Source: Lachnospiraceae bacterium NK4A144
GTDB lineage: Bacteria > Bacillota > Clostridia > Lachnospirales > Lachnospiraceae
Assembly: GCA_000424365.1 (NCBI GenBank)
Contig: AUJT01000003.1
Coordinates: forward strand, 124,001-188,000
Direction: 5' to 3'
Length of the DNA: 64,000 bases
Shown: in pieces, positions 46,543 through 58,063 of the stretch
Position numbering within the stretch: position 1 is the first letter of the stretch
How the letters are laid out: each line of letters starts with the position of its first letter
Position numbers and translations under genes: made by a program
Notes under the pieces: model-generated
What the model was told of the DNA's origin: nothing
Seen by the model: only the letters and a program-made list of their open reading frames with translations
The model's database searches: none

Positions 46543-46633
46543 CGTCAATCCCATTCGGGACATTCGCACTTTTCTCTCCACCGGAGCGAGCCAGCGAGCA
46601 ACCGGTTCGTCACACTTGACTCTATGTAAGTCA

Positions 46634-46806
46634 GCGCGAGATGTATCACCGTACCTGAAGCATCATTTAGAGGCGTTTAGCCGGAGAATGATACACTGTC
46701 CGTATCGCTGCGCGAGCCCGTTCTAAGGGCGAGTGCTTAGCGAGACGTGACCGGGATTATTCGACGGCTGCCGAGATGCTTCATGGTACGGTGATACATC
46801 TCGCGC
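46634..46806. repeat. Inverted-repeat element D
   Basis: Arms of 31 paired bases with one bulged T: 46634-46655 pairs with 46785-46806 and 46656-46664 with 46775-46783. The arms end GTCAGCGCG... and ...CGCGCGTCACC, the same outer pattern as elements B and C, but the inner arm sequence is different. The 110-bp interior is rich in GCGAG-type motifs. It lies about 60 bp beyond the rhaS-like stop codon. Confidence 0.8.
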
Positions 46807-46814
46807 GTCACCAT

Positions 46815-55174: not shown

Positions 55175-55196
55175 GGGATTTGTCTCAGAAAGTAAC

Positions 55197-55418
55197 GACC
55201 GCTCGAAGGGGTACATCATACACGTGAACACATCGCCTCGTCGTCAGCGCTCCGCCGCCTATTCTCAAGTGCTTCGGCAACTCGGGCACTTTGCTCCCAT
55301 GCGCTCCGCGCAGAGCACAAAGTACCCTCAAACAGCGCCTCTCGCACTTGAGCTACGCTCGCGCTTCTGTCCTCGGCTCGAATCGTTCACTTAGTATGAT
55401 GTACCCCTCCGGGCGGTC
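55197..55418. repeat. Inverted-repeat element A
   Basis: A 222-bp element with 25-bp terminal inverted repeats (55197-55221 and 55394-55418; two mismatches) around the core GGGGTACATCATAC. Its interior is homologous to elements B and C but in opposite orientation. The inner stem reads CAAGTGC/GCACTTG where B and C have CAGGTGC/GCACCTG, a compensated change. It lies just past the yesM stop and may work as its terminator. Confidence 0.85.
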
Positions 55419-55431
55419 TGAGTTATCTCTT

Positions 55432-55481
55432 GCAAAAAACTCCCAATATAAGGATACATTTAATACCTTATATCAGGAGTT
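55432..55481 (-). terminator. Terminator of the truncated nuclease gene
   Basis: AACTCC/GGAGTT and ATATAAGG/CCTTATAT stems (55438-55481) separated by a symmetric two-base internal loop, followed on the minus strand by TTTTTT. Between this hairpin and the nuclease stop at 55523 there is nothing else recognisable. Confidence 0.8.
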
Positions 55482-55522
55482 AATAGTCCCAAGTATTCTA
55501 TTGTCTTTATCATGCGTTCAGC

Positions 55523-55915
55523 TTACAGATTCTTCTGCAGTTCCAGCACGGTCTGGAGTGACATTTCTGTAGCAGCTGCTACATATTCCGGTGTGCTTCC
55601 GGATTTGAGTAAGTTCCTTGCAATGTTTTCTGATACACTCTTTGTTACTGTTGTAGTAACACTTTCAGTAACAGTCTTCGTGGTCTCAGCAACTTTTTCG
55701 GCTATTGCATCCAGTTTTTCTTGTTCTATTATCTGCTCTACTTGTGTCTTCATAAGCATCCTCCTTATCTTTTCTGCAAAAGGTTTTAATATCACCTTAT
55801 CACAAAAAACAAGTAATCCTTTTAGTACGAATACTCTTTGACGTTCATCGTCGATATTGTCCAAAAGATATATAACATAATAATCACAAACTGTCAGCCC
55901 GCGTTGAGAGGTCAC
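55523..55915 (-). pseudogene. C-terminal fragment of an Rpn/PD-(D/E)XK transposase-like nuclease
   Basis: 130 codons remain. The sequence matches the C-terminal part of Rpn family proteins: a helix ending FAEKIRRMLMKTQ, a charged coiled coil (EQEKLDAIAEKVAETT) and the small end domain GSTPEYVAAATEMSLQTVLELQ. The nuclease domain is absent, and the first residues MTSQRGL come from the terminal repeat of element B, so the element probably replaced or deleted the 5' part of the gene. Translation from the repeat-derived ATG is possible but lacks a ribosome site. Confidence 0.7.
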
Positions 55916-56120
55916 ATCATACTAAGCGGACGATTCGAGCCGGAGGCAGAAGCGCGAGCATAGCTCAGGTGCGAGAGGCACTGTCTGAGGGTACTTTGGG
56001 CATCGCGCGGAGCGCATAAGCACAAAGTGCCCGAGTTGCCGAAGCACCTGACGATAGGCAGCGCAGCGCTTCAACAGAGGCGATGTGTCCGCGTGTATGA
56101 TGTGACCTCTCCACGCGGGC
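55897..56120. repeat. Inverted-repeat element B
   Basis: A 224-bp element whose arms (55897-55931 and 56087-56120) share the core GAGAGGTCACATCATAC and its complement, with outer GCCCGCG/CGCGGGC. The interior has the stem CAGGTGC/GCACCTG and an inner GGGTACTTTG/CAAAGTGCC stem. It is nearly identical to the first 150 bp of element C. It ends at the Rpn fragment on one side and 70 bp before the ATPase promoter on the other. Confidence 0.88.
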
Positions 56121-56189
56121 GTCACTATCTCTTACAAACAAGTTACGCTAGGCTCGAAAATACCTCGCTAAGTGCTCAGCATAATTAAG

Positions 56190-56235
56190 ATTTTAGCATA
56201 TTATAGTCAATATATGTGCTATAATATGCTAAAAT
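56190..56235 (+). promoter_or_regulatory. Perfect 17-bp inverted repeat over the ATPase promoter
   Basis: Arms 56190-56206 and 56219-56235 are perfectly complementary over 17 bp with a 12-bp spacer. The right arm contains TATAAT (56220-56225) preceded by TGC, an extended -10 promoter, so a dimeric protein bound to the repeat would cover the promoter. It is too A+T-rich and lacks the T tract of a terminator. Confidence 0.7.
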
Positions 56236-56279
56236 ATAATTCAAAATGATGGTTTCAGCAGATTATAGGTGAATTACGC

Positions 56280-57707
56280 ATGAAAATTATTGGAAGAAAA
56301 AGAGAACAGGATATTATTTTAAGATGCCTCGAATCCAGGAGACCGGAATTTATGGTAGTGTTTGGTCGCCGTCGTGTTGGAAAAACTTTTTTGATCCGAG
56401 AATTTTTTAATGACCATTTTTCATTTTATACTACCGGAATTCCAGACGAAAAGACGCGTAACCAACTAAAGGCTTTTAATGAGTCGCTGTCAATCTATGG
56501 AGATGAAACAGGTACTATTCCAAGGGACTGGTTTGAGGCATTCCGTCGTCTCCGAAAAATATTGGAAAACGGACAGGTCTACCGCGATTATTCAAGTGGG
56601 AAAAGAATCGTATTCCTGGATGAAGTTCCGTGGATGGATACTGCCAGATCTGATTTTAAGTCTGCATTTGATTTTTTCTGGAATAGTTGGGGGTCTACGC
56701 AGGAAGACTTGTTATTGATTGTTTGTGGTTCTGCGACATCGTGGATTATCAATAATATTTTGAATGATAAGGGCGGATTTCATAACAGAATTACAAAGCA
56801 GATGCAAATAGAGCCTTTCAACCTTGGAGAGTGTGAGCAATATTATGAAAGTAATAATATTGTCCTAAGCCGAGATAAGATAATAGAGAGCTACATGATC
56901 TTTGGCGGTATACCATATTATCTAAATCTGTATGACAGAAGACTCAGCTTGGCACAGAATGTAGACAGTTTGATATTTGACGATAGAGGCGATCTGCATA
57001 ATGAATATTATCAGCTATTCAGATCATTGTTCAAAAAACCTGATAATCACATCAAGATCATAGAAACAATGGCGGAAGTGAAGCGAGGGATTCAAAGAAC
57101 GGATCTTGCAAAAAAATCCGGTGTTCCAGATGGAGAGGGGCTTACAAAAGCGCTTCGGGAGCTGGAACAGTGCGGTTTTATAAGGCACTACAATAATATC
57201 TCCTCTCGTAAGAATGGTGGTCTTTATCAAGTGATCGATCCTTTTATCCTTTATTGCCTTTACTTTATTCGTGATGAACGAACAAAATCTTGGCAAGCTT
57301 TTATAAAGTCTCCTGACTATTACGCATGGAGAGGAAATGCCTTTGAAATGGTCTGCCTTGCGCATATCCCACAGATTAAATCTGCACTTGGAATATCCGG
57401 TGTGGAAAGCTCGGAATATTCCTGGAAAAGCAAGCAAAAGGATAATGGAGCGCAGATTGATCTGCTGATTGACAGAAAAGATGATGTGATAAATCTTTGT
57501 GAAATGAAATGTACTGACAAAGAATTTGAAATAAACAGGAAATACAGAGACAATCTTATCAATAAAGTCGAGACTTTCAGAAACGAGGTCAAACCTAAAA
57601 AAGCTATACATATCACTATGATCACATCTAATGGTTTGAAACATAACGAATATTCGGATGTAGTTCAAAATATCGTAGACCCTAAATGTCTCTTTGTTCA
57701 GTTTTAG
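56280..57707 (+). CDS. Archaeal-type AAA+ ATPase with C-terminal DUF234 nuclease-like domain
   Basis: A 475-residue protein. The N-terminal ATPase domain starts IIGRKREQDIILRCLE, with P-loop GRRRVGKTF (residues 29-37) and Walker B RIVFLDEVPWM near 108-118. A winged-helix region lies near 260-320 (RTDLAKKSGVPDGEGL). The C-terminal DUF234 domain has GAQIDLLIDRKDDVINLCEMK, an acidic/ExK pattern of PD-(D/E)XK nucleases. The cellular role of this group is unknown; defence or mobile-element functions have been proposed. The gene is more A+T-rich than its neighbours and flanked by elements B and C, which suggests acquisition. Confidence 0.85.
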   Translation: MKIIGRKREQDIILRCLESRRPEFMVVFGRRRVGKTFLIREFFNDHFSFYTTGIPDEKTRNQLKAFNESLSIYGDETGTIPRDWFEAFRRLRKILENGQVYRDYSSGKRIVFLDEVPWMDTARSDFKSAFDFFWNSWGSTQEDLLLIVCGSATSWIINNILNDKGGFHNRITKQMQIEPFNLGECEQYYESNNIVLSRDKIIESYMIFGGIPYYLNLYDRRLSLAQNVDSLIFDDRGDLHNEYYQLFRSLFKKPDNHIKIIETMAEVKRGIQRTDLAKKSGVPDGEGLTKALRELEQCGFIRHYNNISSRKNGGLYQVIDPFILYCLYFIRDERTKSWQAFIKSPDYYAWRGNAFEMVCLAHIPQIKSALGISGVESSEYSWKSKQKDNGAQIDLLIDRKDDVINLCEMKCTDKEFEINRKYRDNLINKVETFRNEVKPKKAIHITMITSNGLKHNEYSDVVQNIVDPKCLFVQF

Positions 57708-57720
57708 CTATGTGTAACCA

Positions 57721-58052
57721 GCCCACGAGGAGAGGTCACATCATACTAAGCGGACGATTCGAGCCGGAGGCAGAAGCGCGAGCATAGCTCAGGTGCGAGA
57801 GGCGCTGTCTGAGGGTACTTTGGGCATCGCGCGGAGCGCATGAGCACAAAGTGCCCGAGTTGCCGAAGCACCTGATGTCTACAATTAGCAGGAAGCGCTC
57901 CGCCGCTGACTGCGTATGAAAGTGATGTGGGAGTGAGCGCATTTTTCGCCGTAGGCGAACTCTCATAAATGCGCGAAGGGTTACTTGAGCGAACTATTGT
58001 GAGCGAATAGTAACACGTGTCCGCGTGTATGATGTGACCTCTCCACGCGGGC
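57721..58052. repeat. Inverted-repeat element C with extra hairpin modules
   Basis: A 332-bp element with the same arms as B (57721-57755 and 58019-58052). About 150 bp of its left part is nearly identical to B; the right part carries additional modules: GCGCATTT/AAATGCGC (57937-57944, 57967-57974) around TTCGCC-GTA-GGCGAA, then GTTACT/AGTAAC (57980-58014). These modules correspond to those of element E. It starts 14 bp after the ATPase stop. Confidence 0.88.
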
Positions 58053-58063
58053 GTCACCTTTTT

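Follow-up and report, generated by a model that had tools for sequence, protein, structure and literature searches.

In the REP/RAYT and IS200/IS605 systems (REP, repetitive extragenic palindrome; IS, insertion sequence), a hairpin is recognized by its shape plus an unpaired foot, and the target is not duplicated. A miniature inverted-repeat transposable element (MITE) should have terminal repeats in common with an IS, and its ends are expected to be the part best conserved. The bcr1 repeat is able to fold into a conserved structure and has characteristics of a mobile element. Here we describe three elements, A, B, and C, that end in long inverted repeats (arms) framed by short unpaired feet. 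They lie in a 64,000-nucleotide (nt) stretch, hereafter the window, of the genome of Lachnospiraceae bacterium NK4A144 (contig AUJT01000003.1, positions 124,001 to 188,000). The reading that we favor, at a little short of an even chance, is that A, B, and C are non-autonomous, gene-less mobile elements recognized by their shape, whose plus-strand fold is still selected.

The nearest described parallel is the CGTC-tagged REPs, dispersed extragenic palindromes that form simple hairpins of 20 to 40 bp in several families. One side of the hairpin ends in an unpaired CGTC, and no dedicated transposase is known according to the portion of that paper considered here (PMC3733652). The same portion lists CGTC repeats for 5 phyla, Firmicutes not among them (PMC3733652). 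The elements described here differ in being rods of 144 to 231 nt (339 nt with the extra segment in C) whose internal loops are conserved and which have CAG as an additional foot. They are like bacterial MITEs, for which the excerpted text names RUP, NEMIS, and ERIC (PMC3733652), in being non-coding, in having inverted ends, and in often lying beside genes. Unlike those of MITEs, their arms are variable, with no terminal repeat common to all copies; no IS with these ends was present in the sequence scanned, and no target-site duplication was found in 49 hairpins. According to the excerpt considered, bcr1 is a dispersed repeat of 147 to 167 nt in the Bacillus cereus group (PMC2267715). Compared by description only, the two have in common that they are dispersed Firmicute repeats, foldable, and with mobile-element characteristics. 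The family is thus a variant of the known gene-less structured repeats (REPs, MITEs, and bcr1). It is distinguished from these by arms that vary with compensation, by feet held in common, and by interiors that differ. We know of no report of hypervariable compensated arms or shared feet for bcr1.

Elements A, B, and C and their dispersed relatives

The whole units, that is, arms plus unpaired feet, are at 55192-55420 on the minus strand for A (foot CAG to foot CGTTAC), 55895-56125 on the plus strand for B (CAG...CGTCAC), and 57719-58057 on the plus strand for C (CAG...CGTCAC, with a foreign segment inside). Without feet, A occupies 55197-55418 (arms 55197-55221 and 55394-55418, 92% complementary), B 55897-56120 (arms 55897-55922 and 56095-56120, 96%), and C 57721-58052 (arms 57721-57746 and 58027-58052, 92%). 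The inverted-repeat ends claimed in a first-pass annotation of the stretch are therefore present, and every arm core and inner stem that it quoted was located. What it did not mention is that A runs opposite to B and C; A aligns as an inverted repeat with B (84% over 190 nt) and with C (88% over 138 nt). Folding compared with dinucleotide shuffles gave z values of -9.8 for B, -9.7 for A, and -6.8 for C. At 229 to 339 nt, the elements have no room for a transposase gene, so the claim that they encode none is borne out. Open reading frames (ORFs) of at least 80 amino acids (aa) overlap A, B, and C; the one searched (55523-55915) had no Pfam match.

The foreign segment in C (141 nt, 57876-58016, plus strand) replaces 33 nt of B (56052-56084). 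Similar segments constitute a second, GC-rich repeat that recurs in other copies (loci L025, L027, and L042). The orthologous C in genome G009 does not have this segment, whereas the C elements of G030 and of G000, the window's own genome (4.09 Mb), carry it; at the C site, G009 is closer to G000 than G030 is, yet it is without the segment. From the sequences, this pattern suggests that conversion may have taken place between copies.

A BLAST search of G000 with B gave 22 matches, five of which were arms hitting the opposite strand. The conserved core of B (55949-56072, plus strand; 124 positions) was made into a covariance model, R1, which found 13 places in G000 at E < 0.01, at least 3 of them incomplete. 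Three of 98 other genomes were positive in a DNA search with B (G009, G030, and G039), all three being among the 47 other genomes of the window's genus. A DNA pattern scan of named genomes located 33 stretches; the 7 genomes that carry them are labelled Eubacterium, Lachnospiraceae, or Clostridia. R1 relatives occurred in 14 of 298 other genomes sampled from the Lachnospiraceae and in 6 of the 23 genomes in the genus of G366; G366 itself, assembled as one contig, had 18 model hits plus 5 further BLAST places. A wider model, R2, found nothing in 390 other genomes sampled from the class, a search with stricter filters in a sample containing few family members. These copies, within and beyond the window's own genome, bear out the proposal of a dispersed non-autonomous element.

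No described repeat family matched in Rfam or in the open-access literature searched. At the gathering score, Rfam 15 had no match in the window; across 20 further loci it had three, all outside the element. Below that score the matches, two weak ones near A, B, and C included, were mostly microRNA families on long hairpins, and we attribute them to chance. We also attribute to chance two apparent viral copies, which were exact 18-mer hits in coding genes of two related contigs that lack the element.

Selection on the fold and its strand

A structure was drawn by hand on 24 full-length copies and its pairs were then counted. Of its 1,685 cells, 91.5% pair, versus 80.1% in shuffles, a percentage inflated by having been fitted to the same 24 sequences. 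Both sides were altered in 46 of 72 pairs (21.6 in shuffles), and double-changed cells numbered 183 (50 in shuffles). Kinship among the copies inflates some covariation measures; the number of both-side pairs suffers least. None of 500 shuffles attained the observed paired fraction, both-side pairs, or double-changed cells, and in controls in which partners were slid by 1 to 3 columns, 30 to 47% of cells paired and 11 to 18 pairs were altered on both sides. Each of the eight helices had at least one covarying pair, including helices 5 to 8, the short inner helices between conserved loops. Covarying helices are present, as for a structured RNA or single-stranded DNA element.

Comparisons between species gave a similar result. 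Summed over four ortholog pairs, 9 of 811 element positions differ, compared with 177 of 2,932 flanking positions, making the element about five times better conserved (Fisher P = 1e-10, assuming independent sites). The C12b copy differs from its G030 ortholog, whose flanks are 96% and 87% identical, by one A-T to T-A double change, and the C12a copy differs from a G030 copy by two A-T to G-C double changes. The C12a pair supports conservation (element 12/222, flanks 107/236 and 43/246); the C12b pair is mixed (element 11/222, flanks 15/400 and 51/392). Counts of single changes that break a pair were set aside in these comparisons, because a consensus fold of two sequences makes them zero by construction. 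Because covariation, between-species compensation, and ortholog conservation agree, the main inference of the first-pass annotation, that compensated change implies a selected fold, holds, and selection for shape best explains the elements, which we place in a structured repeat superfamily of Lachnospiraceae. Elsewhere in the family, at L179 and L181 (G384 and G391), an element lies 5' of a ribosomal protein gene, presumably rpsL judging from the gene start; over 180 nt the two species differ at 2 positions.

That annotation also allowed for a cruciform, and this part was not supported: the fold of the core is mainly a property of one strand, which disfavors a symmetric cruciform. In 39 of 43 copies the plus strand was the more stable (control on flanks, 43 of 84), and the same held for each of 15 element sequences for which both strands were folded. 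Mismatch counts came from 44 thinned copies, in which the terminal-loop stem aligns badly in distant and B-type copies. With five pairs of that stem left out, a choice made after seeing the data, the core had 58 G.A against 6 C.T mismatches, and 27 G.U against 14 A.C (P = 0.06); with it included, G.U and A.C numbered 35 and 36, with no asymmetry. Single changes from Watson-Crick pairs between nearest neighbors were 21 G.U versus 5 A.C in the inner helices without H7 (P = 0.002), 41 versus 21 in the whole A1 structure (P = 0.015), and 32 versus 20 in the A3 core (P = 0.13). The arms had no clear asymmetry, either overall (132 versus 110, P = 0.18) or among nearest-neighbor changes (18 versus 11, P = 0.26). 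The P values for the orthologs, the core mismatches, and the nearest-neighbor changes treat sites or copies as independent despite their shared ancestry, and so overstate significance. As a control, 11 tRNAs gave 15 G.U and no A.C, a comparison biased by the tRNA finder, which itself allows G.U.

Such numbers raise the possibility, real but on balance doubtful, that the fold is selected as RNA, as a structured noncoding RNA (its own transcript or the ends of mRNAs) that has spread in the genome, its mobility being incidental. The excess of G.U over A.C in the inner helices and in the whole A1 structure, the excess of G.A over C.T, the stability of the plus strand, and the mostly better conservation of orthologs than of their flanks all agree with selection on RNA. 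So does element D, described below, which is identical at 180 of 180 positions in G000, G009, and G030 while the flanks differ, a pattern that recent exchange could also give. The G.U excess is lost when the terminal stem is included, however, and it is unclear in the arms and the A3 core. DNA parameters likewise favored the plus strand in 39 of 43 copies, so that the strand preference is no proof of RNA, and no Rfam family corresponds to the element. The orientation of neighboring genes bears on the same question: 28 of 90 copies were sense and 18 antisense (P = 0.18), 23 lay between convergent and 10 between divergent genes (P = 0.035), and 11 lacked an ORF on one side. With no fixed orientation, a cis-acting form of the RNA-level regulator that had been proposed as the alternative to a mobile element is not supported. 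The mixed orientation and the fewer divergent sites give the impression of a mobile element that stays clear of promoters, not of a fixed cis regulator.

Variable arms and shared feet

The collection comprised 92 copy records, with two sites represented twice; arms could be scored in 90. The score of left against right arm had a median of 23.5 within a copy and 8.0 across different copies, and 81 of the 90 copies were above the cross-copy 95% point, with 76 distinct arms among them. The arms are the least conserved part of the element, differing between subfamilies while being complementary inside each copy. Because they track the core subfamily at many unrelated sites in the window's genus (B type and C39/C4b type), they apparently pass down with the element and undergo compensated drift afterward.

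Complementary arms could also arise by mutation instead of selection if template switching or gene conversion rewrote one arm of a palindrome from the other. Very long uninterrupted perfect arms, of 61 pairs at L177 (G403) and 37 at L108, are consistent with such rewriting, as are the arms' want of clear strand asymmetry and the intact C of G009 beside the segment-bearing C of G000 and G030, which suggests conversion between copies. We consider this quite unlikely, given that the short inner helices 5 to 8 and single between-species base pairs covary too, that the core has its G.A/C.T asymmetry, and that the element is mostly better conserved than its flanks. The gene next to the L177 copy is methyltransferase-like by eye, and relatives have other hairpins at that site, which by eye are terminator-like.

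Another source of arms would be the target, if elements inserted into existing palindromes (terminators, for example) or made an inverted copy of one flank. The number of distinct arms, some of which grade into flanking sequence, and the position of copies near gene ends, with the convergent excess given above, are what lend this explanation its appeal, but the association of arms with core subfamily at unrelated sites speaks against it, and the arms in G366 appear by eye to be mutually alignable. The A site is informative on both sides: G000 has the full element there, G009 has a bare 19-nt hairpin, and G030 has nothing. The bare hairpin might be taken for the original target, but it keeps the element's feet, as a deletion product would, and G030 has no hairpin. 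Comparison of the three sequences indicates that this is presence/absence variation, with the G009 hairpin probably produced by deletion. We judge an origin of the arms in the target to be improbable. That the family is an ordinary MITE or fossil repeat, the product of shared descent and decay with an unselected fold, is highly improbable: truncated or deleted copies do occur (C3:87775 in G000, and its C21 counterpart and the C12b site in G009), as do foreign segments in C and other copies, but covariation is far above the shuffled and slid controls, orthologs are conserved, and the arms are the least conserved part, the opposite of MITE terminal repeats.

The feet are fixed in the window's genus, where the hairpin is framed by 5'-CAG and 3'-CGTCA. 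Within 464 kb of G000, hairpins with these strict feet numbered 6, compared with 0 to 2 for each of 12 permuted feet; a wider foot pattern, not used in that comparison, gave 9 hairpins, three of them probably chance. In a set of 49 hairpins, from a search that required CGTC or CGTT and that probably includes a few chance hairpins, 44 had CGTC (29 CGTCAC, 7 CGTCAA, 5 CGTCCC, 2 CGTCCG, and 1 CGTCAT). The six strict-foot hairpins belonged to the B family (two), to D (two), and to two further types, E and F (one each); with the repeat T2, this makes four further element types that have the same feet and other interiors. The feet are likely to be a recognition signal.

Element D (46632-46811, plus strand) has feet CAG...CGTCAC and long inverted arms; a second copy is at C3:195502, and diverged copies occur elsewhere in G000, G009, and G030. 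E (C3:19108; L232:19108-19315) and F (C4:97925; L248:17925-18068) are rod-like with CAG/CGTCA feet. T2, with the same feet, was found in several genomes (L030, L062, L066, L074, L080, and L088). D and T2 are thus repeated, whereas E and F were each met once. In four of its six loci (L030, L062, L080, and L088), T2 lies close beside a B-family copy. At L058:3673-3769 and L039:2303-2386, short copies that lack the core but retain arms and feet lie beside full copies, so the core can be lost without loss of the ends.

Mobility and what it would mean

In the mechanism that we propose for the window's genus, the plus strand of an element of about 230 nt, such as B, folds into a rod consisting of a terminal helix of almost free sequence and then a conserved core with fixed internal loops. 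A trans-acting enzyme would read the shape of the folded hairpin plus the unpaired feet, not the arm sequence, and the arms would therefore be free to drift as long as their complementarity stayed. After insertion the fold may stay useful or be retained, perhaps through transcripts that carry it, since most ortholog comparisons show stronger conservation of the element than of its flanks.

Several observations weigh against this reading. Of the empty sites that the first-pass annotation looked to relatives for, the A site, vacant in G030, is the only clean one: searches with joined flanks elsewhere gave a deletion remnant and otherwise mostly gene-only matches, and the L127 site, which is without the element in G397, is too diverged for the ends to be placed; the genus of G275 comprised no genome besides G275. 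Among the 49 hairpins, no offset stood clearly above shuffled flanks as a target-site duplication would. In the absence of target duplication, as in a hairpin with shape and foot, the elements resemble REP/RAYT and IS200/IS605, but they differ from these in two respects. First, the Y1 transposase does not track the element: 6 of 6 non-carriers have it, and 5 of 9 carriers, among them G009 (75% complete), do not. Second, the model plus BLAST copies in G366, tallied by hand with fork direction taken from skew, were not biased toward either replication strand (13 with, 9 against, 1 set aside; P = 0.52); this counts against single-strand transposition, which predicts such a bias. A scan of the window, L232-L251, L025, L027, and L057-L089 for matching ends within 6 kb revealed no autonomous copy; each of the three long-range end pairs there connects copies already known, or one of these with a core-less copy nearby. 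Inspection by eye did not reveal the CAG/CGTCA foot in G366 or G275, both distant genomes. Of the ortholog comparisons, the C12b left flank is slightly better conserved than the element itself, and the C12a pair is linked by its right flank only (82.5%, versus 54.7% on the left).

The ORF between A and B (55523-55915, minus strand; no Pfam hit) resembles the tail of an ORF of 300 aa, intact versions of which occur at other element sites. We take this family to be Rpn-like, by eye and without a Pfam match. Its members or their tails lie beside elements at four places, the window, L023:1868-2770 (minus strand), L037:342-1220 (minus), and L039:1922-2200 (plus), and at three of the four, A-type elements or fragments are 3' of the family gene; L039 also carries a Transposase_31 ORF. 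Between B and C, outside the elements, is a gene for an ATPase_2/AAA_14 ATPase of 475 aa (56280-57707, plus strand). The window at 55895-58057 and L037:1498-2830 are the same place, between histidine kinase and permease genes. The same-direction pair of elements there encloses the AAA ATPase gene in G000 and G009 and other small ORFs in G030. The cargo between the fixed elements differs between G000/G009 and G030.

The common feet permit a broader proposal, which we regard as rather unlikely as it stands: a Lachnospiraceae superfamily of mobile rods without genes, unrelated in sequence, that have one pair of feet and would be served by one shape-reading enzyme, the folded shape being the selected unit of heredity. 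No description of such a superfamily was found in Rfam or in the open-access literature searched. If it is true, an arm, or even an interior, would be freely replaceable as long as the fold and the feet were kept. Mobile repeats are usually defined by conserved terminal sequence; here the ends change fastest, and only complementarity and a small foot are kept, which suggests that repeat families are missed when their ends are sought by sequence. The family also offers a large natural set of compensated variants, with which shape recognition by a mobilizing enzyme becomes directly testable. Should the fold be carried by RNA, we would be dealing with a mobile RNA family that spreads without a protein of its own.

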